Part shown: piece by piece, positions 45,102-63,744 of the stretch
Numbering within the stretch: the first letter of the stretch is position 1
Layout: the number at the start of each line of letters is the position of its first letter
Source: Shewanella sp. MTB7
GTDB taxonomy: Bacteria > Pseudomonadota > Gammaproteobacteria > Enterobacterales > Shewanellaceae
Reading direction: 5' to 3'
DNA: 64,000 bases
Assembly (NCBI RefSeq): GCF_027571385.1
Contig: NZ_CP085636.1
Coordinates: forward strand, 5,256,501-5,320,500
Translations under genes and position numbers: made by a program
The notes under the pieces: generated by a model
The model's database searches: none
What the model was told of the DNA's origin: nothing
What the model saw: only the letters and a program-made list of their open reading frames with translations

Positions 45102-45463
45102 AAAACCTCATGGCTTAATATAAACCAACTGACTCTCCCCTCTATTTTCAGCTGAATATAAATTCAACTTTCAAGATGCTTTACTCAACGGTAAAGACCT
45201 CAAAAACACCATACATGACTATATTGACTTCTAGAATGATCAAAAATAGGAACATAAATCTCAAAATCGAGACGGTAGAAGTCATTTAGTTCGAATAGCG
45301 CGAGCTGAATGGCAAGTTCCGCTAATACGAGTCAAGTCACTTTCTCAGTCGCTGGATATTGGAATTTGGGAAGAGAGGATTAAACTGAGTATTTACTCAT
45401 AATTCAACAGGGGTAAAAAAGAGGCTACCAATATAACAGAAGCAGTGATTCTGTTACGCTATT
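45102..45463. other. Intergenic region upstream of the toxin gene
   Basis: A 362-base gap containing the promoter region of the toxin gene and the 3' flank of the DMT gene. A TTATTCAC-like or other named regulator site was not recognised, and no ORF or strong hairpin was seen. Confidence 0.4.
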
Positions 45464-46363: not shown

Positions 46364-46481
46364 AAGATTGATCCTATAAAAAATGACTAAAATAAATTAC
46401 TGACACATAGTTAAGTATCTGCAGATACAAATATTTGAACGAAAATTCCTGCCAACAATCAACATCATAAACTGAATTTAT

Positions 46482-47690: not shown

Positions 47691-48072
47691 CTTAATAACC
47701 TCGTAGTAAGGGCAATTTATCGGACATTTAGAGTATGTAAGTGAAGCTTACGACATGACTCAATATGAGACCTGACCAAACAGTAAAAGCTTTCCTATTG
47801 GTACATTACCTCAAAGACTTTAGATTATCAGATACGCATCACACTTCAGGCTTAATCTAGATATAAGTCTGTCGACAAAAATCACAATTCACATTAAATT
47901 ATATAAAATTTACATTACATTACTAAGAACTTAGGTAAACAAACCACACCTAGCACTTCAGAATACGCAACTCTAATAAACTTAAGCATTAACATAAGTC
48001 CAACCCCTGTCTTTCTTCAAGATAAGGGAACTCTTTGTAGTGCATATTCTCTCAATAATGTTTTCAGTTGTT
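47691..48072. promoter_or_regulatory. Divergent promoter region, hydrolase-OsmC / BCCT, with operator-like site
   Basis: TTTCCTATTGG at 47791-47801 matches 11 consecutive bases of the glycine-cluster palindrome at 37081-37100 (complement strand). No ORF was found. The start of the BCCT gene is uncertain within the last 50 bases. Confidence 0.45.
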
Positions 48073-50040
48073 ATGGATAATAAAAAAATGAAAAAACACT
48101 TTGAACTCATCGATAAACAAACATTTTTTGGTGCATTAGCGCTCCTTTTCGCCGTGGTCATCCCCTTAATTATTTTCCCTGAAGAGGGGGCTGAGTGGAT
48201 TGCTGTAGCAAAAACGTTTATGACTGACAAATTAGGTTTCGCCTATTTAGGCTTAGGCTTATCTGCATTTTTCTTTATGATTTACATCGTTTTTTCTGAT
48301 ATTGGTCAGATCAAGTTGGGGGATCCAGATGAGAAACCTGAATTTGCCCTTGCCTCTTGGGCCGCCATGCTTTTTTGTGGTGGCATCGGAGCCAGTATTT
48401 TGTACTGGGGAACCATTGAGTGGGCCTATTATTACCAAAACCCACCTTTCCAACTAGAAGCTGGCAGTGAAGAAGCGATTCGTTGGGCTGCGACCTATGG
48501 TCTTTTCCATTGGGGACCCATTGCCTGGTGTATCTATATGATCCCAGCGATCCCTATCGCCTACTTCTTCTATGTTCGCAAACAACCTGTACTCAAAGTT
48601 TCAGCGGCATTGATGCCTGTGATTGGTGAAGCCAATAGTGTTGGTAAGTTAGGTAAGTTCATCGACATCCTGTTTATTTTTGGTTTATTAGGCGGCGCTG
48701 CAACCACTTTAGGTTTAGCTGCTCCACTGATTAATGAGGGAATAAGTTATCTATTTGGCATTCCGGCAACGACCGGCAGTCAAATTGGTGTACTCATGTT
48801 ATGTACCGCATTATTTGCCTACTCCTCTTATCAAGGTATGGACAAAGGTATTAAGGTACTGAGTAACATTAACTTTTGGGGCGCATTAGCCTTATTAGCT
48901 TTTGTACTTGTTTGTGGGCCTACCATCTTTATGCTAGAAACCGGTCTGGATTCAATCGGCCGTATGCTATCTAACTTCTTCGTTATGGCAACTTGGGCAG
49001 AACCTTTTGGTGGCATGGGTCCATTTGAAGATACTCATTTCCCACAGGATTGGACCATTTTCTACTGGGCGTGGTGGTTGGTCTTTGCGCCAAGTATGGG
49101 TCTGTTTGTTGCTCGAATTTCTCGCGGAAGAACCATCAGAGGCATGGTCGCAGGTGCGGTGTTCTTTGGCTCACTCGGCTGCTCAATGTACTTTATGATC
49201 TTAGGGAACTACGGACTGTCGTTACAGTTGTCTGGACAACTCGATGTGATCAGTATCTTGAATATCGAGGGCCCTACTCGCGCTATTTTTGCTATTTTGG
49301 AACAACTTCCTTTTAGCACGGTAGTCATCGCTGTATTTACCTTGTTATGTATCATCTTCACCGCAACGACTTTCGACTCAATCTCATATATTCTGGCATC
49401 CGTTGTACAGAATAATGTCACAGAAGATCCGATGCGTTGGAACCGATTATTCTGGGCCTTTACCCTCTCCTTAATGCCATCAACATTGATGTTTATGGGC
49501 GGGTTAGCCACATTGCAAACCGCAGCGATTGTGGGGGGACTCCCCTTGCTAGTCATTGCAGTCATGTTGATGATTTCGGGCGTTAAAGCCGCAACTTTTG
49601 ATTTGAGCCATCAAGATGATTATGTGGATCCGGTGATCCACATTTCTGAGCTACCTGACGTGGATCCTTGGAGCAAAGAGGGTCAAGCCCTAGCACGTTT
49701 CGAGCTACTACGTGATAGCGCAATTGAGGCTGCAGACCTTGAACGTGAAGCGTTAGACGCTATCTGGTTACTCAAGAAGCAGCTACGCAGAGAAGCACTT
49801 TCTCGAGGCGAATCTAGCTTAGATCTTGGTGATGCACCTGATGAAATCATCACTGAGCTATACCGACTGGGCGAAGAAGCAATGAAAGCGAAGGAGCGTA
49901 AATTAGAGGCTTCTGAGCAATCACAAGCCGCTCGTACAGCCTTTGATGACCTTATGCGTGACAAAGCTGACGATGAGCAGCTACTCGCTCAAGAGGAAGT
50001 TAAAGCTGCCATTCAGGCCAGACTCAATAACCCAATTTAA
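48073..50040 (+). CDS. BCCT-family betaine/choline/carnitine transporter with long C-terminal tail
   Basis: 655 residues from ATG 48073; GTG 48040 (with AAGGGA ten bases away), ATG 48058 and ATG 48088 are alternatives. Twelve membrane helices end at about residue 525. The BCCT signature WTIFYWAWWLVFAPSMGLFVARISRGRTIR is clear, with the tryptophan box in helix 8. About 130 charged residues follow (from DDYVDPVIHISELPDVDPW), including a probable coiled coil rich in Glu, Arg and Ala. Osmosensing BCCT proteins such as BetP use such tails, so activity may be osmotically regulated. A strong terminator follows. Confidence 0.9.
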   Translation: MDNKKMKKHFELIDKQTFFGALALLFAVVIPLIIFPEEGAEWIAVAKTFMTDKLGFAYLGLGLSAFFFMIYIVFSDIGQIKLGDPDEKPEFALASWAAMLFCGGIGASILYWGTIEWAYYYQNPPFQLEAGSEEAIRWAATYGLFHWGPIAWCIYMIPAIPIAYFFYVRKQPVLKVSAALMPVIGEANSVGKLGKFIDILFIFGLLGGAATTLGLAAPLINEGISYLFGIPATTGSQIGVLMLCTALFAYSSYQGMDKGIKVLSNINFWGALALLAFVLVCGPTIFMLETGLDSIGRMLSNFFVMATWAEPFGGMGPFEDTHFPQDWTIFYWAWWLVFAPSMGLFVARISRGRTIRGMVAGAVFFGSLGCSMYFMILGNYGLSLQLSGQLDVISILNIEGPTRAIFAILEQLPFSTVVIAVFTLLCIIFTATTFDSISYILASVVQNNVTEDPMRWNRLFWAFTLSLMPSTLMFMGGLATLQTAAIVGGLPLLVIAVMLMISGVKAATFDLSHQDDYVDPVIHISELPDVDPWSKEGQALARFELLRDSAIEAADLEREALDAIWLLKKQLRREALSRGESSLDLGDAPDEIITELYRLGEEAMKAKERKLEASEQSQAARTAFDDLMRDKADDEQLLAQEEVKAAIQARLNNPI

Positions 50041-50066
50041 TCGTTGATTAAGCTATAGCACTTAAT

Positions 50067-50105
50067 AAAAAAAGCGGGTTTGCCAATGGCAAACCCGCTT
50101 TTTTA
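50067..50105. terminator. Bidirectional terminator between BCCT and porin
   Basis: Perfect 11-base stem GCGGGTTTGCC / GGCAAACCCGC with an AAT loop, flanked by As on the left and Ts on the right, so it works on both strands for the convergent genes. Confidence 0.92.
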
Positions 50106-50131
50106 TTATTTATCTTAGTTATAAATATATA

Positions 50132-51253
50132 TTAGAAATAGTAAGACATCGCAATCGTAAAGCGACTGTTCCAGCTGTCATCGGCATCATCAGCCAATCC
50201 AAGACCATCATCACCTAGCCAAACCGCATTCTTGCCTAAGTAATGATCGAAATAGATATTAAACTTGCCATAGCTGACATACATACCAGTAGTATTCACA
50301 TAAGACTTATCAAACTTTTCCAAGTCAGGTGAAACCACTGAGTAATCGTTGTAGAAGGTAATAGAGCCCCAAGTCGTTGGGATCTTCTTCGAAAGGTTAG
50401 CTGCAATAGTACTGGCTTTGGCGGCTGCACCGTAAGTGCCATTACCTAGCCCCATTATAACGATATCAGTATCAATCAGACCATCATCGTATTGATCGAA
50501 GTCTACTGCGGCATATTGCAGTTGTAACTGGTAGCCTTCATAAGTAGCGTCGAAAAATGCAGTGTAGTTTAAAGTATCACCATTTTCACCAGCTTTATTA
50601 TCATAGAGTTGACCAATCTCAACCGACGCGCCCACTAATAGCGCGAAGTTATCTTGATCATAACGATAAGATTGGCGAGCGGCGATAGTATTAGAGCGTG
50701 TAGAATTGTAAGCCATAACATCACCGTCGGCATTTGTATATTCTACGTTCGAAACCGTACCAGCGAAATCACGACCGTCGCCATAAGCTGAACCCGTTAA
50801 ATAAGCAATTTCAGTTTGGAAACCATCGGCGTAACGGTAGTCCATCGACGCACCTAGACCGTAATCATCTTCGATACCGTAGTAATAGTTTACAGAGTAC
50901 CACCAGTTATGGGATGTCAGGTTGTTACTGCCCGAAGGCTTGCGGATTAAACCCGCATTAAAGGTAAGATCGTCACTCGCTTTATACCAGAAATAACCAT
51001 GCTTTAAATAGTCATAGCCACTCTTCAAACGGTAATTGACGGACACCCCGTACTCATCATTTTCCCCGAAAGAGTCATCAAAAGTTAGCATCACTTGTGA
51101 AAAAGAGATGTCACCTTTACGATCTTCTAGCTCTTGAGAGAAATCGCTGTAATCATAAGTAAATTCGACTCCACCACCCAAACCAGCAACTGCTGCTGTC
51201 GATGTAGAAGCTAAGAGAAGAGCAAGTGACGCAGTTATTTTATTAATTTTCAT
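50132..51253 (-). CDS. Outer-membrane porin-like beta-barrel protein
   Basis: 373 residues. The signal peptide MKINKITASLALLLASTSTAAVA ends before GLGGGVEF. The mature chain is a series of alternating strands with aromatic girdles (WWYSVNYYYGIEDDYGLGASMDYRYADG) and finishes with FTIAMSYYF, the terminal phenylalanine needed for outer-membrane insertion. It looks like a 16-strand porin of the phosphate-selective/general type, but I cannot name the specificity. It converges with the BCCT gene, sharing its terminator. A long upstream region contains phased AGTTACAAC-type repeats. Confidence 0.85.
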   Translation of the reverse strand: MKINKITASLALLLASTSTAAVAGLGGGVEFTYDYSDFSQELEDRKGDISFSQVMLTFDDSFGENDEYGVSVNYRLKSGYDYLKHGYFWYKASDDLTFNAGLIRKPSGSNNLTSHNWWYSVNYYYGIEDDYGLGASMDYRYADGFQTEIAYLTGSAYGDGRDFAGTVSNVEYTNADGDVMAYNSTRSNTIAARQSYRYDQDNFALLVGASVEIGQLYDNKAGENGDTLNYTAFFDATYEGYQLQLQYAAVDFDQYDDGLIDTDIVIMGLGNGTYGAAAKASTIAANLSKKIPTTWGSITFYNDYSVVSPDLEKFDKSYVNTTGMYVSYGKFNIYFDHYLGKNAVWLGDDGLGLADDADDSWNSRFTIAMSYYF

Positions 51254-51856
51254 TTTATGTTCTTAAGGTTAATACTTAAACCAGCACTTAAGCCTATGCC
51301 AATTCACTGCCGGCTTCATTTTCCAGCTTAGGTATTATTATTGTTTTTATGCCGTATTATGTTTACACTTAATACAGGCCGCATTGTTCAACAGCATATG
51401 TTAGGCATTGCTTATCTAGTGATTATTTTATCGTATTCTATGGTGCAAAATAAACATTCGAATCCATCATCCGAATCACTATTTATATCAACCAATAATA
51501 AAACATAAAAGTTATCAACTACCACTTGCAAAAGAACCACAACCCCGCTGGAATCCAGTTACAACGCAGCTACAATTTCAGCCCAACCAAGTTACAACTT
51601 TAGCTTTAATAGATAAACTTTCACTTTTAATCAAACAGAGATACATTTCATAGTTAATATTAAAAGATAATAAAAACATTAATAGTCCACATATTTACTG
51701 CTTGATTAATTACGTTACCACTTATCGTTATTTATACTCAACCACTGTCATTTCAACTTTAGACTTTGCTCACTAATAATAGTGACATATCGTTATCAGC
51801 ATAAAATAACCCTGGTATAAACTGAATTTACATCACTGCAAGCAGATACAAACCCA
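51254..51856. promoter_or_regulatory. Gene-free 600-base region upstream of the porin, with phased repeats
   Basis: AT-rich gap holding the porin promoter. The nonamer AGTTACAAC occurs at 51557-51565 and 51590-51598, with a close variant AGCTACAAT at 51568-51576, spaced 11 and 22 bases. No ORF is supported here. Confidence 0.55.
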
Positions 51857-52942
51857 TCAGAGTTTAAAATTTAAACTCTCAGGTATAGTGACGCCGTGCC
51901 CAGCTAAGCCATTAAGTGACAAATAGCCATTATTTTTTGTATATCCTCCCCATTCATCCACAAGAATTAGGGGAGTAGCCAAGTCAATACAGGTCATCAA
52001 CAATTTCTCTGGAACTGACTTGGCTAAGTGCATCACGGCGGCGGCGGCAACAGGCGAGCACCAGACTCCATCCATTCTTAAGGGAACTGAATGAGCGACC
52101 AAGATATCTCGTGCAGCTTGAGCGATGGCTAAAGAGCCGAGATGAGAAGGTTTTACCACCGCTGCCGACACTACACCATCACTGCAAGCTCGAGTGATCG
52201 CAGCTAGGGATTTTAAGCATTGATCAAAGCAGGTCTTCTTACCCGATTGCTCCGCAAAGTCCCTGTTCTCCTCATAGGTGTAACACGGCTCCTCCCAAAT
52301 AAAGCGATCGTCATCATAGTGAGAGGCAAACACCTTAGCGGTATCGAGATCCAGCGCGCCATTAAAATCGAGCAACAATGATTGTTCCTTACTGAGATAA
52401 GGCAATATGGCGTCGATACGCGCGAGGTTAAGATCGACGCTTTTACCGTCCAGCTTAATCTGTACCACGCGCCGCCCTTCAGCCCTAACGCTCATATCGC
52501 TGGCCATTTTTTCTGGGGCCTCACATGAAAGTGATAAATAGTCAGCCAATGGCGCATCTGAACTGCCGCCAAAAACCGAGTACATTGGGACATTCGCAGA
52601 CTTACACAGCAGATCGTAATAGGCCGTTTCCAGTGCAAATGAAAGCGCATTATAGCGGCAGTCTCTGGCGCGGAGTTTAGCTGCAAGATGTAAGACTTCA
52701 TGGAAGCTAAGATCCTTCAACTCCTGAAGTAGCGCATCTTCCATGTTGAATATTGTCGCTAAGTCATAGCCAGGATCAGTGATCAGCTCACCATGTCCGG
52801 TCAATCCATCTTTTCTGCTTATCTTCAGAATTCGAGAATAGATGACTTTTTGTGTGACATAAGACATCACATAACCATCACCCTCAAGTTCAGGTCTGAA
52901 TTGTGCTACTGATAATGTTATATCGCCCACGGTATTCTCCAT
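51857..52942 (-). CDS. Enolase-superfamily (muconate-lactonising/dipeptide-epimerase subgroup-like) enzyme
   Basis: 361 residues with the N-terminal capping domain and C-terminal barrel of the superfamily. Likely metal ligands are Asp192 (LLDFNG), Glu217 (IWEEP) and Asp240 (CFDQCL); acid/base lysines are Lys163 (VQIKLDG) and Lys264 (AVVKPSHLG). The usual K-x-K pair is Q-x-K here. Enzymes with this two-lysine layout catalyse epimerisation, racemisation or syn-elimination: dipeptide epimerase, N-acyl amino acid racemase, hydroxyproline-betaine epimerase. Clustered with BCCT, RidA, PhzF-like and dipeptidase-like genes, a betaine or amino-acid derivative is a reasonable substrate guess. Confidence 0.8.
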   Translation of the reverse strand: MENTVGDITLSVAQFRPELEGDGYVMSYVTQKVIYSRILKISRKDGLTGHGELITDPGYDLATIFNMEDALLQELKDLSFHEVLHLAAKLRARDCRYNALSFALETAYYDLLCKSANVPMYSVFGGSSDAPLADYLSLSCEAPEKMASDMSVRAEGRRVVQIKLDGKSVDLNLARIDAILPYLSKEQSLLLDFNGALDLDTAKVFASHYDDDRFIWEEPCYTYEENRDFAEQSGKKTCFDQCLKSLAAITRACSDGVVSAAVVKPSHLGSLAIAQAARDILVAHSVPLRMDGVWCSPVAAAAVMHLAKSVPEKLLMTCIDLATPLILVDEWGGYTKNNGYLSLNGLAGHGVTIPESLNFKL

Positions 52943-52947
52943 TAAAT

Positions 52948-53853
52948 TTATGATTCAACTATTACTTTTAACTTAGGACTAGCACTTACTTGTTGACGTT
53001 GACTCAAATATCCTTGAGTCATCCCTGAAAGGATGATGAATATGCAGCCAGAAATTTGCAGCGCATTCAAAGACTCAGAAAATAGTACCCAACCTAAGCC
53101 AACCACAACGATGGCTTCGACATACGCCAAAGTGCCATAGGTCACTGAAGGTAGATTTCGCAATGCTTGCACGGCACACATGGTGGCAAAAAAACCTGAG
53201 ATCAGTCCAATGGCGATTAGCCAGAATGTCTGATCTAAACTGGGTATCTGTGGTGTACTCAATACAAAAGGCAGAATGCATAAGGCGCCGACAGACAGTT
53301 GCACCAAAGTACTTTGATAGGGTGAATCTGAAGAGGGCTTGCGGTTCAGCAGCATAAAGGCGCTATAGGCAACGAGTGAAAGTAAGGAGTAGAAAATGCC
53401 GTATATTTCATCCTCCCTATCACTAAAATCTAAGGTAAACTCCATCATCATGCAAAAACCAAACAAAGCAGTGGCAATGACTACAATATTTTCTATACGG
53501 AGTTTTTCATTAAAAAAGAAGTGGGCGTATACAGCACAAACAAGTGGTGCCAAATAAATAATCATGATGACATTTGCCATGTCGGTATAATTCATGGCTT
53601 GTATATAGAAAAACATAAACCCGGCCAGAGTTAAACCATTCACAACTGTCCTTGCTTTAGGTTTGTGAATAATCTTCTCTCCTTTACGCATAGTCATCAT
53701 ATAAATAAGCATAAAGAATGCACCTAAGAATAGGCGATAAAATGTAATGTGTTCGGCAGGCATTTGCGCGTAACGAGCAAATGCAGCCACGCTGCCAAAA
53801 CTTGCAGCGGCTATTACAGCTAGAAATATAAATTTATAATTTGAATGTTGCAC
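52948..53853 (-). CDS. EamA/DMT-family exporter
   Basis: About 301 residues from GTG 53853; the frame extends upstream to another GTG at 53916, five bases from the RidA stop, but the first helix (FIFLAVIAAASFGSVAAF) then has an unusually long charged lead. Ten membrane helices in two EamA repeats are visible. Members move amino acids and other small metabolites. It lies between ridA and the enolase-superfamily gene in one minus-strand unit, so it may export a pathway intermediate or excess product. The substrate is unknown. Confidence 0.82.
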   Translation of the reverse strand: MQHSNYKFIFLAVIAAASFGSVAAFARYAQMPAEHITFYRLFLGAFFMLIYMMTMRKGEKIIHKPKARTVVNGLTLAGFMFFYIQAMNYTDMANVIMIIYLAPLVCAVYAHFFFNEKLRIENIVVIATALFGFCMMMEFTLDFSDREDEIYGIFYSLLSLVAYSAFMLLNRKPSSDSPYQSTLVQLSVGALCILPFVLSTPQIPSLDQTFWLIAIGLISGFFATMCAVQALRNLPSVTYGTLAYVEAIVVVGLGWVLFSESLNALQISGCIFIILSGMTQGYLSQRQQVSASPKLKVIVES

Positions 53854-53921
53854 AATAGATACTCTAGTCACCACCTCGAAAGAATTCACACTCGCTCTTA
53901 ACCGAGGCGGTTCCACTTTTA

Positions 53922-54302
53922 TTAAATGAAAGCGATAACTTCTATTTCAACTAGTGCATCTTTAGGGAGTCTAGCAACCTCAACACAAGAGCGTGCTGGT
54001 GAATGCTCAACACCAAAAACTTCACTGTAAACTTCATTAAATGAAGCGAAATCTTCCATGTCTGATAAGAAACACGTGGTTTTAATCACATTACATAATG
54101 AAGAACCACCTTGCTCGAGTATAAATTTAACATTCACTAAGCACTGTCTAGTTTGCTCCTTAATTCCACCAGGAATAAATGCCATTGTGCTAGATTCTAA
54201 AGGTAATTGTCCTGAAGTGTAGATAAGGTTATTGATAGAAATCGCCTGGGAGTATGGACCGATAGCTGCGGGTGCTAATTCAGTGTGTATTATTTTTTTC
54301 AT
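53922..54302 (-). CDS. ridA: RidA-family reactive imine/enamine deaminase
   Basis: 126 residues from ATG 54302, with TTGGA upstream. The family core is present: [10 protein letters not shown] near residue 13, TSGQLPL, and the substrate-carboxylate arginine in [25 protein letters not shown]. RidA hydrolyses 2-aminoacrylate and other imines released by PLP or flavin enzymes. A dedicated copy in a catabolic cluster implies that an imine or enamine forms during the pathway, for example by deamination or oxidation of an amino acid. Confidence 0.9.
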
Positions 54303-54328
54303 TATTTTTCCAAATTGCAATTAGTTAA

Positions 54329-55003
54329 TTAAATGTGATCCGTTGAGCGGAATTCACGAAGATACTTATAAACAGCATGACGAGTAATACCTAAACTTTC
54401 AGATGCTATGTTGACGGCACCTTTCAATTCAAATATTCCGTTATTCATTAATTGCCAAACTATGGCTCTATTTTTTCCCTTTATACCAATGGAGGGATCA
54501 TTTTCTACATCCGTAATGGCCATATTTAGTGTTCTATATATGGTATCTTCGCTATTGGTACTGAACACTTCATTGGATAAACTGGCATTAGGTATAAGTG
54601 TTTTTATGATGTCAGGAAATGGCAAAGAGAGATTTATATTCACACAAAACAATCCAATTGCATTTCCTTCCGAATTTGTAATTACACTCGTGGTTGACTT
54701 TAAATGCCCCCCCTCATTATTTTCGGTGAAATAACTCTTAGGGGCCATTTCGCCTGTAGCTTCAATAACTCGAAGCATTTTTAAACCTAGGTTAGTTATT
54801 GGAGAACCTATTTCTCTCTGTGTGTTATGCCCATTTACAATTTTTACTACCGATTCATCAATATTGTGCAGAGAGTGAATCACAACCTCACAATGTGGGC
54901 CAATAAGATCGGCGACAGACTCGGCTAACGGAAAATAACATTGGAGACTTCTATGGTCTTCCTCTGTAAACCCTAGGTTTCTACGTAAAAAAACTTCCTT
55001 CAT
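54329..55003 (-). CDS. YheO/DauR-type PAS-HTH transcriptional regulator
   Basis: 224 residues from ATG 55003 (AGGTGG about ten bases upstream; GTG 55018 possible). A YheO-like PAS domain fills about residues 10-120 (FPLAESVADLIGPHCEVVIHSLHNIDESVVKIVNG), and a DauR-type HTH lies at the C-terminus (GAVNIASESLGITRHAVYKYLREFRS). The family includes DauR, repressor of D-arginine catabolism. It is divergent from the BCCT-PhzF-dipeptidase operon and first in the minus-strand unit, so it probably controls both halves of the cluster. Confidence 0.87.
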   Translation of the reverse strand: MKEVFLRRNLGFTEEDHRSLQCYFPLAESVADLIGPHCEVVIHSLHNIDESVVKIVNGHNTQREIGSPITNLGLKMLRVIEATGEMAPKSYFTENNEGGHLKSTTSVITNSEGNAIGLFCVNINLSLPFPDIIKTLIPNASLSNEVFSTNSEDTIYRTLNMAITDVENDPSIGIKGKNRAIVWQLMNNGIFELKGAVNIASESLGITRHAVYKYLREFRSTDHI

Positions 55004-55375
55004 ATTTAACTGCACCACCTAATTAAGATAAACATAATCAACAACAGTGCTAAATAAATGTTAATAAGCACAAGTTAATAAACATTTAAACAATTAACTT
55101 TTAAATTAATTAATTAACGCAAGCGATGGATGCTTACCCATCAATAAATGTAACTATATATACGAGACTCTCAAAAGACAAGTTTGACTTTGAGCGATAA
55201 GTCACAAAAAGTTGATTAAACATAATGAATAATAGCCGCCATCGCGAATCAGATTGCCACAAAGTAAACAAAATGTAACTTTGATCGCGTAAACAAAAGT
55301 TAACTTCCAATGAACAATAATTACATATGGAAGTATTCAAAACCCACAAACTTTAAATGTTTGGAGTGATGCTTA
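55004..55375. promoter_or_regulatory. Divergent control region of the BCCT/enolase cluster
   Basis: A 372-base AT-rich gap between the regulator and BCCT starts, expected to hold the DauR-like operator and both promoters. I could not identify a convincing operator by eye. GGAGTGATG precedes the BCCT ATG. No ORF is supported. Confidence 0.45.
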
Positions 55376-56986
55376 ATGACAGCTAAATATATTAACGAAA
55401 CGACACCTCAATTGAATACAAAAAAGAAACAATCCTCAATTGATTATGTTGTGACTATTCCAGTAATTGGGATTTTAATTGCGTTATGTTTATTTTTGTT
55501 ACTTGATGTTGAAAGAAGTGAAAAGGTAATTAAATCTGTTCTTATCTGGATTGAATTTGAACTTGGTTGGCTTTATATCATTACGATGATTGGCACATCG
55601 ATATTGGCAATCTGGTTAGCTTTTGGTCGATTTGCACATGTCAAACTCTGTGCGCCAGGAGAGCAAGCTCAGTTTTCTGTAGCAAGCTGGTTCTGTATGA
55701 TCTTTATGACAACCATGGCCGCGAGCATCATGGTTTGGGGCTTTGTTGAACCTTCCTACTATTATACCTCTCCCCCTCATGGGCTAGAGCCATTCTCTGA
55801 TGAAGCATATGTATGGTCGCTAACACAAACCATGTTTCACTGGAGCCCTGTAGCCTACTCAATTTATGTCCCATTTTCTGTCACACTCGCCTACTTTATC
55901 CATGTAAGAAAGAAAGATGTATTCAGAGTGAGTCAAGCTTGTAGCGTCGCGATTGGTGAAAAAAATGCCAATGGTTGGGTCGGTAAAGTTATCGATATTC
56001 TCATCCTTTTCGGTGTAATAGGCGGCATGTCAACGTCCTTTGGACTGGCAGTCCCTGTTGTGCTTGAAGGTGTAGGCCGTGTAACGGGTATAGATGCTGA
56101 CTCTACCGGCTTACTGATCGGACTTATGGCTGCTTGGTTACTGGTTTTCGGTATCAGTCTTTATCGCGGACTCGATGGTGGTATGAAGCTTATCAGCTCT
56201 TTCACCGCAGTTGTCGGCGTTACTTTTGTCGGTTTGCTGTTTCTCTTAGGTGATTCAGTTTTCGCATTGAAGATGGGGATCAACAGCTTAGGTCAGATGC
56301 TTCAAAACCTCATCTCCATGACTACCTTTATGGATCCTATCTCTAAAACAGGCTTTGTGGAGTCTTGGACCGTATTTTACTGGGCATGGTACACAGGCTT
56401 CGCCGCGGCTGTAGGTCTGTTCATCGCCAAGATTTCTCGTGGTCGTACAATTCGTGAAGTTGTTTTTGGCTCAACGGTCGCCATCTCAGCTGGCGTCTAC
56501 ATTATTCAGATAACATTCGGCTCATACACCATAGATCAACAGATCTCAGGCGTGCTCGATGTCGCAGCTTCAATTACCTCTATCGGCACCAGTGCAACGG
56601 TTCTTGAAATTGTTGAAACACTACCATTTGGCGGTTTCATGGTGGCAATGCATGCGATTCTGTTATTTGCATTCGTGGTGACCTCTCTGGATGCGACTGC
56701 GTTTACCTGCGCAAACCTTTCATCAATTCGCCTTAAAAGCGATGACGAGCCAGCGGTAAATAGCAAGTTAACCTGGGCGGTGATCTTAATGTTGCTCACA
56801 GGTACATTAACAATAATTGGTGGACTCTCTGCGGTACAAGTGTCATCACTTATCGTCTCTGTTCCCTTAGTATTCATTGCCGGAATATTGGTGGTATCCC
56901 TTATAAAAATGCTCAACGAAGACTTCCCTGTGACTGATGATAAGTTCATCTACGTTGACTACAAAACTAAATCTGAGGAAAAATAA
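55376..56986 (+). CDS. BCCT-family transporter
   Basis: 536 residues with twelve membrane helices. The BCCT hallmark WTVFYWAWYTGFAAAVGLFIAKISRGRTIREVVFG is present, as is MVWGFVEPSYYY in helix 4. It lacks the long C-terminal tail of the other BCCT protein at 48073. BCCT carriers import betaines, choline, carnitine or similar zwitterions with sodium or by exchange. As the first gene of an operon with two putative enzymes it probably imports the pathway substrate rather than an osmolyte. The exact substrate is open. Confidence 0.9.
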   Translation: MTAKYINETTPQLNTKKKQSSIDYVVTIPVIGILIALCLFLLLDVERSEKVIKSVLIWIEFELGWLYIITMIGTSILAIWLAFGRFAHVKLCAPGEQAQFSVASWFCMIFMTTMAASIMVWGFVEPSYYYTSPPHGLEPFSDEAYVWSLTQTMFHWSPVAYSIYVPFSVTLAYFIHVRKKDVFRVSQACSVAIGEKNANGWVGKVIDILILFGVIGGMSTSFGLAVPVVLEGVGRVTGIDADSTGLLIGLMAAWLLVFGISLYRGLDGGMKLISSFTAVVGVTFVGLLFLLGDSVFALKMGINSLGQMLQNLISMTTFMDPISKTGFVESWTVFYWAWYTGFAAAVGLFIAKISRGRTIREVVFGSTVAISAGVYIIQITFGSYTIDQQISGVLDVAASITSIGTSATVLEIVETLPFGGFMVAMHAILLFAFVVTSLDATAFTCANLSSIRLKSDDEPAVNSKLTWAVILMLLTGTLTIIGGLSAVQVSSLIVSVPLVFIAGILVVSLIKMLNEDFPVTDDKFIYVDYKTKSEEK

Positions 56987-56987
56987 C

Positions 56988-57926
56988 ATGGCTAATACAA
57001 TCGAATTCTCACTATATGATGCTTTTACTAGCCTACCTTTCGGTGGTGGACAAGCTGGTGTTGTCGTTAGCAAAGGCGAGCTTAATGCCGAATTAAGACA
57101 GAATATTGCCTTCGAAGTGGGTAAAGCCGCGACTGCCTTTATCAGTGATTATGATGCGAATTCAATCACGGTTCGTTTCCATTCCCCGACAACTGAATAC
57201 CCTATGTGTGGCCATGGCACTTTATGTGTTGTGACTGAGATGCTGACTCGTGACATTTACAACTGGGCAGAGAAGAGTGAACTCGGTCTAGATCTTAAAC
57301 TGCCGCAGACCACATCACGCATTGAAGTGGTACGCAACGAGGAAGGCGATGCTGTCATAATGTTAGATATCGTGCCTCACCAGTTCCCAGAAAGTAGCTT
57401 TGATGCTGAAGAGATCACTAAGTTACTGTCTGTCAATGTCGAGGATATCAATACTGATATGCCGATCGAGCTTGCCTGTGGCGACTTTAATCACCTGGTG
57501 GTTCCTTTTAAAACCCTTGAAGCGGTAGCGAGAATTCAACCAAATTACACTGAACTAAATAAGTACTGCATCGACAACAATGTTCAAACGGTTATCTGCT
57601 ATTGCGACGAGACTCAAGATCCGCGCAATGTTGCTCACTTACGTGACTTCTGCCCAGCCGTTGGCGTCGATGAGTCTGCTGCAGGTGGTACCACCAACGC
57701 TGGTCTTGCCGCCTATCTGTTTAGAAATGGTCTGAATAAAGTGACCCCAAGCGGAATAATTAAACTTCGCACCGAACAGGGCATCGAAATGAAGCGTCCG
57801 AGTACCATTGAGACTGTCATTAACAGTCAAGACGGTGAACTAGTGCGCTTACAAGTGGGTGGCGTTGCCATTAAAACCGTTAGTGGCCACCTGCCATTTA
57901 TTACCGAATCAGACCTAGGAAAGTAA
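56988..57926 (+). CDS. PhzF-fold isomerase/epimerase-like protein, atypical active site
   Basis: 312 residues from ATG 56988, with GAGGAA upstream, one base after the BCCT stop. PhzF landmarks are recognisable: FSLYDAFTSLPFGGGQAGVV at the start, PTTEYPMCGHGTLCV near residue 80, and VGVDESAAGGTTNAGLAAYL near 223. In the segment where PhzF enzymes have S-E-T-x-F this protein reads A-A-T-A-F (residues 47-51), so the catalytic glutamate seems replaced by Ala48. The usual GNP turn is GGQ. It may catalyse a different proton transfer or bind without catalysis. The alignment is by eye. Confidence 0.8.
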   Translation: MANTIEFSLYDAFTSLPFGGGQAGVVVSKGELNAELRQNIAFEVGKAATAFISDYDANSITVRFHSPTTEYPMCGHGTLCVVTEMLTRDIYNWAEKSELGLDLKLPQTTSRIEVVRNEEGDAVIMLDIVPHQFPESSFDAEEITKLLSVNVEDINTDMPIELACGDFNHLVVPFKTLEAVARIQPNYTELNKYCIDNNVQTVICYCDETQDPRNVAHLRDFCPAVGVDESAAGGTTNAGLAAYLFRNGLNKVTPSGIIKLRTEQGIEMKRPSTIETVINSQDGELVRLQVGGVAIKTVSGHLPFITESDLGK

Positions 57927-57928
57927 TT

Positions 57929-58936
57929 ATGTCTACTCCATTTTCATTAGAAAATAGCCAGAAATTTTATCAAGATATGCTGGTTTGGGATGGGCACGCC
58001 GGTATTTTCCCAAGCCCGAATGTGGATCTCAATAAGTTAATTGAGTGGCATGAGTCTGGTGCGAATTACATCAGCATCAATGTGGGCTTTGATGTGATGA
58101 ACTTTGAGCAAACAATGGCAACGCTTGCAGCGTACCGCCGCTGGTTTGCCACTACACCCCACAAAGATATTATTCTAGCTTCAACCGTTGCCGATGTTAT
58201 CCAAGCCAAGAAAGATAACAAGCTGGCGGTAACGTTCGATATTGAGGGGGTCAATGCCCTCAATGGTAATGCCGACATGGTGCGGGTGTATCACGCCCTG
58301 GGTGTTCGTCAGATGCTGCTATCTTACAACCTTAATAACAAGGCTGCTGGCGGTTGTCATGGTGAAGATATGGGGCTAACCGAATTTGGTCAGCAGGTCA
58401 TAGGTGAAATGAATGACGTGGGCATGATTGTTGACTGCTCTCATACTGCCTATAAGACCACCATGGATATGATGGCGTTATCTTCTAAGCCTGTGGTTTT
58501 CTCCCACTCAAATCCCAAGAATATCTGTGACCATCAACGCAATATCTTAGATGAGCAGATCAAGGCCTGTGCTAATACTGGCGGCCTTGTCGGTGTCGTG
58601 GGAATGGGAATTTTCCTCGGTAACAATGAGTCAACCACAGAGAATTACTTAAAACATATCTGCTACTTGACTGACTTGGTCGGGGCTGAACATGTTGGAT
58701 TGGGCTTAGATTACTCACCAAAAATGGATCTGGATGTGGGTGAGATCTTAAGATCTAGACCCGATTTCTGGCCACCAGGTAATGCTTATGATACCAAAGA
58801 CATTGGTCATTACTCACCGGCTCAGTTCCATGAACTACTTGAAGCTATGATGAAAAAAGGCTTCAGCCAACATGAAATTGAGGGCATTTTTGGCGGCAAC
58901 TTTATGCGCGTAGCCAAAGCGGTTTGGGCAGCATAA
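57929..58936 (+). CDS. Membrane-dipeptidase (M19) family protein, atypical metal site
   Basis: 335-residue amidohydrolase-fold barrel without a signal peptide, hence cytoplasmic. Metal-site landmarks of renal dipeptidase-like M19 proteins are seen: WDGHAG at 20-25, Glu106 in FDIEGVNAL, His193 in FSHSNPK, and HQRN at 202-205, then GLGLDYSP. The standard N-terminal motif is DGHND with His and Asp as ligands; here Gly25 stands where Asp is expected. It starts two bases after the PhzF-like stop. It may hydrolyse an amide or lactam of the pathway substrate with an altered metal centre. A hairpin terminator follows. Confidence 0.83.
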   Translation: MSTPFSLENSQKFYQDMLVWDGHAGIFPSPNVDLNKLIEWHESGANYISINVGFDVMNFEQTMATLAAYRRWFATTPHKDIILASTVADVIQAKKDNKLAVTFDIEGVNALNGNADMVRVYHALGVRQMLLSYNLNNKAAGGCHGEDMGLTEFGQQVIGEMNDVGMIVDCSHTAYKTTMDMMALSSKPVVFSHSNPKNICDHQRNILDEQIKACANTGGLVGVVGMGIFLGNNESTTENYLKHICYLTDLVGAEHVGLGLDYSPKMDLDVGEILRSRPDFWPPGNAYDTKDIGHYSPAQFHELLEAMMKKGFSQHEIEGIFGGNFMRVAKAVWAA

Positions 58937-58984
58937 GTTAGACCGTAACAGCTTTAAGTCTTTGTCTTAGCAGATAAAAAGATT

Positions 58985-59021
58985 ATAGATGCCTTTGATA
59001 TCATTAAAGGCATCTATTTAT
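58985..59021. terminator. Terminator after the BCCT-PhzF-M19 operon
   Basis: Perfect 12-base stem ATAGATGCCTTT / AAAGGCATCTAT with a nine-base loop, followed by TTATTTG. It separates two convergent genes and probably serves both. Confidence 0.75.
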
Positions 59022-59045
59022 TTGATTGAAGTTACCTCATACAGC

Positions 59046-60320
59046 TCACAACTTGCTACAATCCAGCTTTTCCTGCCCAGAATCTATGCTGTAAACATAG
59101 GTTTGTTGATAATCAACGCCATTGTATTGCTGAGCAAAATGCACTGCTTGATAGCTGCATAAACCATCCTGTCTCTGCATCACAATCACACCGGCAATGT
59201 AACGCCCAGTCTGGATCCCAGTCAGCTTATTTCGCAGTATTATCCAATCATTATCCCGGATATATGCATCGAGAATAGACTCATTCCACGACTCTTTATT
59301 GGCACGCTGTTTTGCTGCATTTAGTGCTTGCTGCTGCAGTTTGTCATCCTTCAAGCCTCGATTGGGAAGTCGATTGCTCGCCGTACGCTCAGCATCTTGT
59401 TGACGATAACGCGCATCCACGGCATTTTTAGCCAACAGCGCATAATTAGCTAAGGTGTTATCAATATCCTGCTGCATCTTCTTATCCGCAGTAAGCGTAC
59501 GAACATAGATTGGATCTTGGGCAAACAGATTATAATGGCTGTTTTTATCCCAAAGCGCTTTGCCTAATTTGGCCTTCGCGTAGAAGAATACTCCCTTTGA
59601 CTCCTCAATCATAAACCGTCCCATATTGCCCATCTCATAAACAGGCTTACCTATTGCCTGACTGAGTTCTGCAACATAGACAAAACGATCTTGAGTACAA
59701 GATCTACACTTATCTCCCTCAAGGGACACTGATTTTTCAGGATCAAGCGTCAGCTCGAACTGATCATAACTCTTTCCATTTATCTGATACCTAGCCGCAC
59801 TGTAATAGTGACCACTACCACCTTCTATCACAACTTTCTCGACTCCTTCCCCAGTAATTAGCCGCTTTGACTCAGTAATTACAAACACTTTTGCAGTACT
59901 AAGATCTATCCCTGGTGTTCCTCGCTTTCGATACACGTTTATGTAAGCGATATTCTTCCAAATTGCTTTACCTAACAAACCATCGGCCATCACAGATACA
60001 AAAGTATTGTCGTCATAATGAATCAGATAAATCCCCATGCTATTAAAGAAGACGGCACGTTGAAGCTCAGTAGATTCCTGTTTCATAAAAGAGTAGATCG
60101 CCGGAGGACAACGCTGACAACCCGCTGTCGCAATGACGGTTTTCCCCTGATGCTCCCCAAGTTGTATCAGCAACTCTTGGGTCTGCCCAGCACCGCTACG
60201 TTCAGCTTGAGCCAGATCATAAACCCCATTAACCAGCTCCGGTGATAAACTGCCTGCACACACATTAAGATGGTAGACAAGCATCCAGATTGAGATCACC
60301 GTAGCAACTATTACTCTCAT
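59046..60320 (-). CDS. Exported protein of unknown function with a duplicated CxxC module
   Basis: 424 residues, with an N-terminal signal-like helix (VIVATVISIWMLVYHLNVCAG). Two homologous modules are visible. The first has CQRC (Cys68, Cys71) and, 48 residues on, LGKAIWKNIAYINVY. The second has CRSC (Cys205, Cys208) and, 47 residues on, LGKALWDKNSHYNLF. An Arg/Gln/Ala-rich helical stretch follows (about 285-345), then a small domain with two more cysteines. The CxxC pairs could form disulfides or bind a metal in the periplasm. I do not recognise the family. No operon partner is evident. Confidence 0.75.
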   Translation of the reverse strand: MRVIVATVISIWMLVYHLNVCAGSLSPELVNGVYDLAQAERSGAGQTQELLIQLGEHQGKTVIATAGCQRCPPAIYSFMKQESTELQRAVFFNSMGIYLIHYDDNTFVSVMADGLLGKAIWKNIAYINVYRKRGTPGIDLSTAKVFVITESKRLITGEGVEKVVIEGGSGHYYSAARYQINGKSYDQFELTLDPEKSVSLEGDKCRSCTQDRFVYVAELSQAIGKPVYEMGNMGRFMIEESKGVFFYAKAKLGKALWDKNSHYNLFAQDPIYVRTLTADKKMQQDIDNTLANYALLAKNAVDARYRQQDAERTASNRLPNRGLKDDKLQQQALNAAKQRANKESWNESILDAYIRDNDWIILRNKLTGIQTGRYIAGVIVMQRQDGLCSYQAVHFAQQYNGVDYQQTYVYSIDSGQEKLDCSKL

Positions 60321-60571
60321 ATATTTTTCCTTGATACCCTAGTGAGATTTAATCTCTGCATTCGATATCACGCACCAAATGCAGGCTAATAACTCAACAT
60401 AGACCTTACAGGTCAAGTTCACAAATATCAGGAAAAGATGAATCTCATCAATTAAGGGGAATGTTCTAGAATATGACTATTTTCAACTACGCCTTTTCCT
60501 AGAGCACCTATAATGATTAAGTGCTGTATTTTTAAGGCGGTACCTAAGAAAAATGAGCGATGTAGGATACA

Positions 60572-61741
60572 ATGCAAAGGAATCTGTTTTTATTATTTTC
60601 TTCACCTGATAATGAATTTGAAACTCGTCTCTATACGACAAGAATCGCTCGTTATTTTAGCCAAAGCATTAAAAACTCGCCCCTACTACTCATTGCCTCA
60701 CTTATACTATGTGGCTATCAATTTTATTTAAAATCGACTTTGATTTCATTGATTATTTGGCAAGGCGCACTTTCAGTTATCGTCCTTACTATCTATGTAG
60801 TTGACAGAAAAGGCAACGCCCAAGTGGCGTTAAACATGGATTATTTCACGCTCAAAAAACAGCTAATCCAACGCTTTTTTCTTGGCTTATTCATTGCCGT
60901 ATTATTTGGTATTAGTCCCTTCATTTTATTGGCCGATGTGCCACTTGATCATGTACAGCTTTATTATATTTTTTTGGTGTGTTTCTTTGCCATTATTCTT
61001 GTGAGCAATATTAGTTTTCCGGAATATTACATTGCCTACGGCATCATTATTCTCCCCATGATTTTTCTTCATGCACTAACCCGATTCGACGATCACAGTA
61101 AAGGAGTCATCGCTTTTTCATCTTTCTTTTTACTAATAGGGCTCATGCTAATGATCCGTAAATCAATAGAGATGTCCGAAGGTGCGTTAAATGAGGTAAC
61201 TTATAGTATTACTTTAAAAGATCAAATGCTTGAAATGATAAAGATGCAAAAATTAATAGAGCATCAAGCACATCATGATGAACTAACGGGATTGGCAAAC
61301 CGTCGTAAATTTGAAGAAGAAGCAGCAGAAATAGAACATAGGGCAAGGGATTTCGGTAATATTTTTGGACTTATTTATGTTGATTTGGACAAGTTCAAAC
61401 CGATAAACGACACCTATGGTCATCAATATGGAGATTGGGTACTACAGGAGATTGCTAAGCGAATAACTAGCTGTACTCGTGAAACAGATCTTGTCTGTCG
61501 TATGGGGGGAGATGAGTTTTGTGTATTGATAAAAAACATAACCAACAAAGAGGAATTGGAAAATCTATCTACCTTATTAAGAGAACGGATAACAATGCCA
61601 TTTGCTATCAATGGGATAGATTTTAATTTAGGTGCCAGTATGGGCTCAGCTATTTATCCAGCCGACGGTGAAAACGTAGACTCCCTTGTTTCGACTGCCG
61701 ATCACAAAATGTATAAAGAGAAAAAAACGGCACAAGGTTAG
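60572..61741 (+). CDS. Membrane-bound diguanylate cyclase
   Basis: 389 residues. Six or so hydrophobic helices fill about residues 35-200, with no recognisable periplasmic sensor domain. A C-terminal GGDEF domain follows (LTGLANRRKFEEEA, then VDLDKFKPINDTYGHQYGD). The active loop is GGDEF and the inhibitory site RETD lies five residues before it, so the enzyme should make cyclic di-GMP and be product-inhibited. It is monocistronic with no visible link to its neighbours. The signal it senses is unknown. Confidence 0.93.
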   Translation: MQRNLFLLFSSPDNEFETRLYTTRIARYFSQSIKNSPLLLIASLILCGYQFYLKSTLISLIIWQGALSVIVLTIYVVDRKGNAQVALNMDYFTLKKQLIQRFFLGLFIAVLFGISPFILLADVPLDHVQLYYIFLVCFFAIILVSNISFPEYYIAYGIIILPMIFLHALTRFDDHSKGVIAFSSFFLLIGLMLMIRKSIEMSEGALNEVTYSITLKDQMLEMIKMQKLIEHQAHHDELTGLANRRKFEEEAAEIEHRARDFGNIFGLIYVDLDKFKPINDTYGHQYGDWVLQEIAKRITSCTRETDLVCRMGGDEFCVLIKNITNKEELENLSTLLRERITMPFAINGIDFNLGASMGSAIYPADGENVDSLVSTADHKMYKEKKTAQG

Positions 61742-61909
61742 CGACCTTCAATTAACGTTTATTACCTAAATAACATGCAAATGTTTTAATTACCTCTGTT
61801 GTCATCCCATTCGCAGCACGCTCTACTCCCCAGCGATACATCTGTTAAAATCCATTCTTATTAATACGAATTTATCTATAAATGACCAAGAAAATTGCTG
61901 GAGACAGAT

Positions 61910-62899
61910 GTGTTAACAACACCAAGCAAAGATGATTGGATCCGTGGTGGCTTGTACGCCATAGCGATGGGCACACCGCTACTTTTAGCTCCGTGGCTAC
62001 CCAGCACAATATCGGTATTTGTCACGCTTGGAGCCATGTTTACCCTAAGACTCGATCCCCGCAGTCATTCCAAGCATCAGGTAATGGCGATGATGGGGGG
62101 AATGCTATTGGTAATATCCGCTGGCATGTTTGGTAAGTTACTTGTCGGTCACCGAGATTTGACCATTATGGCACTTGTTCTTATCAGCTTTCTTGCAGGT
62201 CAACCCCAACCGGAACAAAAATACTTTGCTTTACTGGGTAAATTTGTGGCTGCCGCCTTTGTACTCGAAGAAGTGGGCGGTCCAGCAACACTGACAACAG
62301 CAATGGCTTATCTTAGCGGAGCGGCATTCGCGCTGCTTCTGACCTTAATTCAAGGGCGCTTTTTTCCTACGCAGGCAACAGGCTGGTCGCTTTCCACTGA
62401 ATGGCACGATCTGCGAACGGGTCACATCAATGGCCCATTGTACGGTTTGGCTCTACCATTGACGGTCTTAGCTTCAATTTTAACTGCCCACTGGCTCAAT
62501 GCGCAGCATGAGTCCTGGGTTGGTCTAACGGTTCTTTTCGTTATGAATGTTGATGCAGCAAACGCTTGGAAAAAAATAGGCATGCGCATTATTGGCACTT
62601 TAATGGGAGTCATCTGTGCTTATCTGGTCGTTATATTTTTCCCCAACTGGACTTTCCCTTTTATTATTATGTTAACAGCGCTTTTTATGCCAACATTATT
62701 ACGACAAAATTACATACTTCATAATTGGTTAACGACTATATTCGCCTTGCTTGTCGTCGATCTAGCTATGCAGCAAAATGGGGGCGATGAATCTCTGATC
62801 CAATGGCGTTTTATTGATACTCTGATCGGTTGTGCTTGGGTTGCAGTGAGCTTGATCTTGCTACGTCTTGGAAGAAGATGGTGGCCTAATAAACCTTAA
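61910..62899 (+). CDS. FUSC-like integral membrane protein
   Basis: 329 residues from GTG 61910, with GGAG six bases ahead; a TTG at 61895 is discounted. Two blocks of about five to six membrane helices are separated by a short soluble linker (TGWSLSTEWHDLRTGHINGP). The second block begins with LPLTVLASILTAHWLNAQHESWVGLTVLFVMN and KKIGMRIIGTLMGVICAYL, resembling the FUSC/aromatic-acid exporter fold. It lacks the large cytoplasmic domain of AaeB. A transport role is likely, but the substrate is unknown. Confidence 0.78.
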   Translation: MLTTPSKDDWIRGGLYAIAMGTPLLLAPWLPSTISVFVTLGAMFTLRLDPRSHSKHQVMAMMGGMLLVISAGMFGKLLVGHRDLTIMALVLISFLAGQPQPEQKYFALLGKFVAAAFVLEEVGGPATLTTAMAYLSGAAFALLLTLIQGRFFPTQATGWSLSTEWHDLRTGHINGPLYGLALPLTVLASILTAHWLNAQHESWVGLTVLFVMNVDAANAWKKIGMRIIGTLMGVICAYLVVIFFPNWTFPFIIMLTALFMPTLLRQNYILHNWLTTIFALLVVDLAMQQNGGDESLIQWRFIDTLIGCAWVAVSLILLRLGRRWWPNKP

Positions 62900-63024
62900 G
62901 CTCGCTAGGGCGATAATGCCTTAATATTTTTTACGTGAAACAATTCAATCAGTGTTGATTTTATGTTAAAACGTGCATACTTTGATAATAGATAATAACG
63001 CCAACTCACTTTAGAGAAAATGAC

Positions 63025-63744
63025 ATGAGACACACAAAATTTTCTGACCATTTAGCAAATAAAACAATCCCTTACAACACCGTCACTTTACCTTACGAAC
63101 AGCCTAAACTGAATGTGAACTATTGGATTGTGGATAATTTTTTTTCACATCAAGAAGCTGTGACAATTGCTAATCGTTGTTTTAATAAAGACACAAAAAA
63201 ATGGAAATTAGGGAGTCCTTATACCAAAGAGTTATGGCCAGGTATGCGCGCAGGTAAAGCACTAAAAAAAGATGAATTACTCAAAGTGGAGAACTGGGTC
63301 AAAGGAGAAATAGGTAAAGATAAAATATGGGTAGAAGAAGACGAGCAAGTTGTTGTCGATTCAAATACGGTTATTTTAGTGGGGGCTGATGAAGGTAAAG
63401 CAAGACCTCATGTAGATAACCGAAAGTTATGCCGTTATGGTGCAGTGTTATATTTAAGCCTAAATCCAGCTGCAGATTCTGGCACTTCATTCTATCGACT
63501 AAAATATGCCAATGGTGCCGCAGGTGGGAACTTGGTAGAAGATCCTTATTATAATTTGGTTGATGCATTAAAAACCAATAGTTTACCTGCTGATGCATGG
63601 TATGAAGATTATTGTATCGAAAACAAATTTAACCGATTAATTTTGTTTAAGAGTAATATTGTACACAGTGCTAGTGGCTATTTTGGTAAAAAAAAGCGGG
63701 ATAAACGTTTGGCAGTGACATTTTTCTGGATGACCGAAAAATAA
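63025..63744 (+). CDS. 2-oxoglutarate/Fe(II) oxygenase-like protein (DUF6445-like)
   Basis: 239 residues. A double-stranded beta-helix metal triad can be proposed: His129 and Asp131 in RPHVDNRK and His214 in NIVHSASGYFG, with Arg228 in KRLAVTFFW as the 2-oxoglutarate binder. RYGAVLYLSLNP and GTSFYRLKY are typical strands of the fold. Members of this group hydroxylate amino acids, peptides or sugars, but this one has no assigned substrate. It is not in an operon; neighbours give no clue. Confidence 0.8.
   Translation: MRHTKFSDHLANKTIPYNTVTLPYEQPKLNVNYWIVDNFFSHQEAVTIANRCFNKDTKKWKLGSPYTKELWPGMRAGKALKKDELLKVENWVKGEIGKDKIWVEEDEQVVVDSNTVILVGADEGKARPHVDNRKLCRYGAVLYLSLNPAADSGTSFYRLKYANGAAGGNLVEDPYYNLVDALKTNSLPADAWYEDYCIENKFNRLILFKSNIVHSASGYFGKKKRDKRLAVTFFWMTEK

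Follow-up and report, generated by a model that had tools for sequence, protein, structure and literature searches.

The window analysed here is a stretch of 64,000 nucleotides on the 6.37-Mb chromosome of Shewanella sp. MTB7 (contig NZ_CP085636.1), probably a marine bacterium. Between positions 51857 and 58936 it carries seven genes in two divergent operons, which may form a catabolic cassette for an imported zwitterion. All seven open reading frames are open and intact at the coordinates below. This check, Pfam and NCBIfam confirm the seven genes and the families assigned to them by the initial annotation, which had been made from the letters alone. The features of the locus are as follows.

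51857..52942, minus strand: enolase-superfamily enzyme of the MLE subgroup (Pfam MR_MLE N- and C-terminal domains; alignment, tree and model)
52948..53916, minus strand: EamA-family transporter, presumed exporter (Pfam, NCBIfam; the true start may be downstream of the listed GTG)
53922..54320, minus strand: RidA-type enamine/imine deaminase (TIGR00004; likely start 54302)
54329..55018, minus strand: DauR/YheO-type regulator (Pfam YheO-like PAS_6 and HTH_22)
55019..55375, no strand: divergent control region of 357 bp between the two operons
55376..56986, plus strand: BCCT transporter (Pfam BCCT)
56988..57926, plus strand: PhzF-fold protein (Pfam PhzC-PhzF; reading frame listed from 56937)
57929..58936, plus strand: M19-dipeptidase-like protein (Pfam Peptidase_M19)
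58985..59017, plus strand: terminator-like hairpin 3' of the M19 gene (15 pairs, T-rich tail)
51833..60463, no strand: block missing from the same-genus genome G014 (flank comparison; includes a reading frame of 424 amino acids at 59046-60320 on the minus strand)

By the listed starts, the intergenic gaps inside each operon are shorter than 10 bases. The true starts of the RidA and EamA genes may lie further in than listed; the match of RidA to TIGR00004 (166.9 bits, cut-off 106.25) begins at residue 8. For the PhzF gene the likely start is 56988, one base past the BCCT stop, rather than 56937, because its relatives align from residue 18. The length of 312 residues listed for the window's own PhzF protein is in keeping with this start. 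The hairpin after the M19 gene is only suggestive as a terminator, since terminator-like sites overall number 7 against 7.6 by chance. Promoter-like sites are not enriched either (15 against a shuffled mean of 23.8).

Window positions 46482-63744 were compared with 60 relatives, the host included, and one same-genus genome, G014, turned out to have an empty site. There the segments corresponding to 45104-51832 and 60464-61741 of the window are neighbours, separated by 134 bases. The missing 8.6 kb (window 51,833-60,463) comprise the seven genes and the 424-residue reading frame, for which neither Pfam nor NCBIfam gave a match. The initial annotation had treated the genes as a single unit and this empty site backs it: the seven genes behave as one block that was gained or lost together.

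The enolase-superfamily, PhzF-fold and M19-like proteins form a three-enzyme core that recurs far above chance, in MAGs and in metagenome contigs. For the branches that these three enzymes represent, no tested function turned up. Among 5.8 billion proteins, a search that reaches only relatives sharing exact words matched the enolase protein to 20 proteins besides the window's own; of the PhzF and M19 relatives, the best 120 of 701 and the best 120 of 2542 were listed. Pairs were counted on contigs of at least 3.5 kb, with the same length and source taken as the same contig. After the window's own two rows were dropped, 65 of 119 PhzF, 70 of 120 M19 and 12 of 20 enolase rows were used. Among the relatives listed there are 10 PhzF-M19 pairs (65 and 70 contigs) compared with about 0.3 by chance. 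Enolase-PhzF pairs number five, or seven if length alone is required, where chance would give about 0.035 (12 and 65 contigs); for enolase and M19 there are two pairs, or three by length. Metagenome contigs of 13,282 and 18,646 bases carry all three enzymes, as judged by length and source. One further pair, on 2,163 bases, fell under the size limit and was not counted. A contig of 16,713 bases, the same size as one paired contig and the sole one that was read, has the PhzF and M19 genes adjacent.

Seven of 30 genomes searched carry an M19 relative, 15 a PhzF relative and five both at the set thresholds. The PhzF and M19 genes are adjacent in the host, in G487 and, across a contig joint, in the metagenome-assembled genome (MAG) G484. 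In the latter, one contig ends with the enolase gene and the first portion of the PhzF gene, and a second contig ends with the remainder of the PhzF gene and the M19 gene. Most likely the order is enolase-PhzF-M19, because the two contigs share 141 bases in a consistent orientation. In the clade locus L011 the M19 gene precedes the enolase gene, and in L101 a RidA homologue with a weak score (66 bits) adjoins a distant PhzF gene. The initial annotation had expected its genes to co-occur in other genomes and had named the lack of co-occurrence as grounds for giving up the pathway. Co-occurrence was found for the enolase, PhzF and M19 genes; in the 41 loci scanned it was not detected for BCCT, DauR and EamA proteins of the window types.

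None of the 117 other relatives searched gave an enolase relative at an E-value of 1e-30, and 397 of 397 other sampled members of the phylum lack an M19 relative at 1e-90 and a PhzF relative at 1e-40. The only further genome among 369 of the class (G410) has a distant member of the enolase clade, with no other core gene on its contig. Viral contigs gave no enolase relative. Plasmid records contain four distant enolase matches, three of them annotated as cis-3-hydroxyproline dehydratase, and three distant PhzF matches in an uninformative context. M19 relatives occur in 228 plasmid records. The four inspected have ABC transporters and FAD oxidoreductases as neighbours; a RidA gene is adjacent once (Variovorax) and a PhzF gene and an agmatinase are nearby once (R. 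leguminosarum), all of which is no more than suggestive.

The enolase-superfamily assignment is supported by all five catalytic KDEDK positions, Lys163, Asp192, Glu217, Asp240 and Lys264, which the clade rows retain except that the last is Arg in L038. The motif is named for the structure 4H2H in PMC11961199. The protein belongs to a clade found at 31 loci in a collection of 84,980 species genomes. Carriers are MAGs of Gamma- and Alphaproteobacteria and a few named strains, with Leisingera sp. ANG-M1 and Tropicibacter sp. R16_0 among the records not labelled MAG. In a midpoint-rooted tree of 57 rows, from which L040 was left out and in which L010 and L011 are represented by listed proteins only, if at all, 47 clade rows including the window split from 10 known and outgroup rows with 100/100 support. 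The window protein lies outside the cis-3-hydroxyproline dehydratase LhpJ, the 4-hydroxyproline betaine 2-epimerase HpbD and the other relatives in the tree. The clade shares the pattern R289-x-D291-G292-x-W294 and Asp320, which is Asn in L033 and L035.

The predicted model of the enolase protein has a predicted local distance difference test score (pLDDT) of 92.8. Its best PDB match by E-value is 4mgg; the template modelling (TM) score of 0.88 to HpbD (4h2h/2pmq) is the highest among the 50 matches listed. At the column of the HpbD tryptophan, which we take to be its cation-binding residue, the HMMER alignment places Asp320 of the window protein; MAFFT puts a Leu of HpbD there, so that the column depends on the alignment, and the window residue is still Asp. 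No clade member with a tested function was found among the NCBIfam, PDB and protein-collection matches. According to PMC5144071, LhpJ is bifunctional, acting as 2-epimerase and as dehydratase with a pyrroline (imine) product. This is the chemistry suggested for the cassette enzyme.

Of 30 other loci, 18 have N-demethylase-type genes no more than 7 kb from the clade gene, compared with one control stretch among 38. The types counted were MttB-type methyltransferases, DMGDH/GcvT fusions, Rieske oxygenases and FMN oxidoreductases. The control stretches come from largely the same genomes, where two of the 40 sought did not exist; many are short, with 405,518 bases in total compared with 355,743 for the loci. 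The references were drawn from enolase-clade or core loci, and a partial match, L040, was left out. Leaving out the clade loci that supplied references (L010, L011, L018 and L022) gives 14 of 26 loci and 1 of 38 stretches; several clade loci are close relatives and not independent. All of the 18 loci show, beyond FMN oxidoreductases, a match to MttB, DMGDH or Rieske proteins. Two Rieske proteins were tested, and both have GbcA as their best NCBIfam model, with scores (126 and 153 of 670) far below the cut-off.

In L014, L015, L019, L020 and L023 the enolase gene has an M24-family gene next to it; in L010 the M24 gene stands at a distance of three genes. Five of these M24 genes were tested against NCBIfam, and all score best with DddP (431 bits in L010, 289 in L014, 291 in L015, 280 in L020 and 300 in L023; cut-off 600). 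In L011 an M20 gene follows the enolase gene (DoeB2, 355 of 550). In L094 (3375-8430) PhzF and M19 genes are followed by AptA (585.7 bits, cut-off 500) and MMSDH (711.2, cut-off 448.5), and in G484 a carnitine 3-dehydrogenase gene (747, cut-off 592) ends beside the M19 gene. Several further arrangements were seen in passing. The roseobacter loci L015, L019 and L023, the latter two from records not labelled MAG, have Rieske, DMGDH and M24 genes together with the clade enolase. MttB and DAO genes lie near the L094 run. Three MAG loci (L033, L035, L037) repeat the series GMC oxidoreductase, PhzF, enolase, SDR and gamma-glutamyltranspeptidase with no demethylase types, and the Rhodospirillales MAG G487 has 23 MttB-family matches, some of them fragments.

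The model of the PhzF-fold protein (pLDDT 89.3) matches YddE/PhzF structures best, and a PDB entry title with E45Q appears among the matches. Ala65, invariant in 28 aligned rows, stands opposite the family glutamate of YddE and 3edn, presumably E45 of PhzF. Ser247 stands opposite the Asp of their EDPxTG stretch, presumably D208 of PhzF. The M19 domain is clear (267.6 bits, cut-off 26), with the Pfam match starting at profile position 63. The protein has H23-A24-G25, invariant in 23 rows, where the HxD motif is expected, which we take to be the usual metal motif of the family. Glu106, His172, His193 and Asp261 are invariant, and presumably these carry functional roles in M19 proteins.

The nearest solved relative of the BCCT protein is DddT, an importer of dimethylsulfoniopropionate (DMSP), with 174 of 496 aligned positions identical (35%). 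The entry path of DddT is kept at five of five positions, and Ala99 and Ser204 are kept as well. The four residues of the onium box (W140, W320, W321 and Y324 in DddT, as given in PMC13270143) correspond to W156, W338, Y339 and F342, so that two are identical and two are aromatic exchanges (W321 to Y, Y324 to F). The largely kept aromatic box backs the betaine-type uptake that had been proposed for this protein. It may import an onium-type or comparable cationic compound with a carboxylate. A second BCCT transporter adjoins the cassette at window 48040-50040; ten BCCT matches are present in the host genome, two of which are neighbouring pieces covering both parts of the model (C1:5624910-5626369).

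The control region 55019-55375 contains AAAGTTAACTT, which is also present in the DauR-RidA control region of G014; this was seen without a chance control. By eye, GTTAAC-type words were noted in three DauR control regions: at 55296-55306 of the window, in L126 (6072-6401) and in L127 (6064-6391), a second DauR-RidA locus of the host. The word is a candidate operator, again without a chance control.

Taken together, the block can be read as a transferable cassette serving the import and breakdown of an onium or cyclic amino-acid zwitterion, a pathway class for which we put the chances as even. The BCCT protein would import a zwitterion that carries a carboxylate and a cationic group of the onium or a comparable type, as its binding box suggests. 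The conserved catalytic residues and the nearest known relatives of the enolase-superfamily enzyme suggest that it abstracts the alpha proton and either epimerises the substrate or eliminates a beta group to give an enamine or imine. In the least certain step, the PhzF-fold and M19-like proteins may add a further isomerisation and a C-N cleavage with rebuilt active sites. RidA would hydrolyse the enamine or imine to an oxo acid and ammonia, EamA presumably exports excess product, and DauR would switch both operons from the shared control region. A route through an enamine or imine is the best reading, while the exact order of these steps is tentative and could well be wrong. From the pathway idea of the initial annotation, the unit, the importer, the enolase-type enzyme and the co-occurring core are retained; its ring or amide opening is an inference, because the PhzF-fold and M19-like proteins lack canonical residues. 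No description of this gene combination was found in the open-licence literature, and by that search the cassette is undescribed.

A number of observations weigh against this reading. The PhzF-fold and M19-like proteins are without the canonical catalytic and metal residues. BCCT, DauR and EamA proteins of the window types were not detected with the core in any of the 41 loci scanned, and L010, the clearest core locus, has LysR, MFS and a different EamA in their place. The PhzF and M19 relatives of G854 and G856 are on different contigs. The empty site comes from one genome, so that gain and loss cannot be told apart, and the G+C content of the block (0.424 compared with 0.435 for the window) does not mark it as foreign. 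In the transporter, Ser117 stands at the position of Gly101 of DddT, where the solved DddT chain that was used carries Asp; G101D caused a significant loss of activity, and two of two tested metagenome homologues of DddT did not transport DMSP (both from PMC13270143). Twelve of the 30 clade loci have no demethylase-type gene. The host genome has no match to MttB or to Ring_hydroxyl_A (Rieske), and its GCV_T matches are two GcvT-sized proteins and a weak one, with no DMGDH/GcvT fusion. Standard betaine demethylation therefore looks unlikely in the host; a methylated substrate would not lose its methyl groups through these three families. Finally, the host carries the second DauR-RidA pair (L127 3724-10675) beside other genes.

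This second locus bears on what the substrate could be. Its DauR-RidA pair adjoins a diaminopropionate ammonia-lyase (TIGR03528, 559.9 bits, cut-off 532.25), and its divergent genes encode M24, EutA-like (160 of 318), EamA-type and M20 proteins, the latter scoring 318 of 550 with the amidohydrolase model DoeB2. The best model for the M24 protein is the Xaa-Pro dipeptidase PepQ (135 of 630), with ectoine hydrolase at 75 of 613. The locus is possibly an undescribed pathway of its own. A diaminopropionate ammonia-lyase is mentioned in the literature on 2-aminoacrylate and RidA. The pairing of DauR-RidA with an ammonia-lyase supports the idea that the cassette pathway passes through an enamine or imine; it also feeds the alternative of an unmethylated substrate, either a cyclic amidine or an N-acyl diamino acid, of the ectoine or diaminopropionate kind. 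The cassette would then be a variant of L127 in which the enolase-superfamily and M19-like proteins act as racemase and amidohydrolase and RidA removes the enamine. The M20 gene after the enolase gene of L011 and the host's lack of the three demethylase families fit this alternative, and Asp320 of the clade, also Asp in 4mgg, could pair with a protonated amine. Against it, the cassette contains no ectoine-type enzyme, all ectoine-family scores lie below the curated cut-offs, the clade elsewhere stands near N-demethylase types and the transporter has an onium box. We regard it as a possible explanation, though one to be doubted.

It is unlikely that the substrate is a 3-onio-propionate (beta-alanine betaine, for example, or a DMSP relative) whose breakdown yields malonate semialdehyde or acrylate-like products. 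DddT as the nearest solved transporter, the M24 genes near the enolase gene in six loci, with DddP matches for the five tested, and the L094 run with AptA, which we take to be linked to the use of beta-alanine, point in this direction. On the other hand, M24, AptA and MMSDH genes are missing from the cassette (they were not sought elsewhere in the host), all M24 scores are below the cut-off, and the BCCT box does not separate onium compounds from each other. A role of the enolase protein as an epimerase of proline betaine or hydroxyproline betaine, in an HpbD-like pathway, is very unlikely: the shared MLE subgroup, the KDEDK residues, the high TM score and relatives adjoining Rieske and DMGDH-type genes are set against a separate clade with 100/100 support, the non-conserved tryptophan (Asp320 in the HMMER alignment) and a host without demethylases of the three families. 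Transporters and regulators vary between core loci, as would be expected of a loose neighbourhood without joint function; the tight operons, the absence of the entire block and the recurring core make this highly improbable.

In a further, speculative and rather improbable form of the cassette reading, an algal onium zwitterion is degraded without demethylation: the enolase-superfamily enzyme would take the alpha proton and expel a beta amine, sulfide or ether oxygen, and the PhzF-fold, M19-like and RidA proteins would finish the skeleton. Beta-alanine betaine, DMSP relatives and the betaine-lipid headgroup would be candidate substrates, with the same low probability; no catabolic cluster was found among the betaine-lipid and beta-alanine-betaine papers listed. 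If true, betaine-type carbon would have a new way into the metabolism of marine bacteria, and the enolase, PhzF and M19 folds would each gain a new activity. Homarine was also considered as a substrate and dropped, as the papers listed gave no gene set.

Betaines, ectoines and similar zwitterions make up a large share of the small nitrogen and sulfur compounds from marine algae, and for many of them we know of no degradation genes. The cassette points to an enolase clade often near demethylation genes and to PhzF and M19 folds with their usual residues replaced. The records not labelled MAG that hold clade members, Leisingera sp. ANG-M1 and Tropicibacter sp. R16_0, make it testable. Elsewhere in the window, positions 32138-42236 hold a glycine/D-amino-acid cluster, read by eye, with GcvP, GcvH, GlyA, an XRE-cupin regulator and an AGCS-type symporter, together with one of the two GcvT genes of the genome and a D-amino acid dehydrogenase (682 bits, cut-off 383). 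A run of sulfatase-like proteins at 13112-29888, also read by eye, includes a TonB-receptor-like protein and what may be a glycoside hydrolase, and suggests the use of sulfated algal polysaccharide.

Most parts of the cassette can be compared with a known system. The regulator shares the PAS_6 and HTH_22 domains of DauR, the regulator of D-arginine use. In that system dauBA genes presumably adjoin DauR, whereas none is among the seven genes. In the transporter, Ser422 of the Na1 site of DddT is replaced by Ala440 and Thr419 of the Na2 site by Ser437. The PhzF-fold protein has the fold and family of the PhzF/YddE isomerases but not the catalytic glutamate, and no phenazine gene is among the seven. 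The M19-like protein belongs to the family of renal dipeptidase and the P. aeruginosa amidohydrolase 2i5g, with H-x-D changed to H-A-G.

For the enolase-superfamily enzyme, 4mgg is the best solved match by both sequence score and fold E-value, and it shares the KDEDK residues and the Asp at position 320. The identity on the fold alignment is only 24-26%, the window protein is in a separate clade (100/100) and NF043002 reaches 112.4 of 500 bits, below its cut-off. Two annotated homologues adjoin genes of the proline racemase family and DapA-like genes. HpbD (4h2h, 2pmq) has the fold and KDEDK residues in common with the window protein, and the position of clade relatives near demethylase-type genes resembles the HpbD system; it differs by the separate clade and by a host without demethylases of the three families. 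None of the enzymes of the ectoine (Eut/Doe) loci, including the DoeA and DoeB types, is among the seven cassette proteins, whereas the ammonia-lyase locus of the host shares with the cassette the DauR-RidA pair, an EamA-type transporter and the logic of a racemase plus an amidohydrolase.

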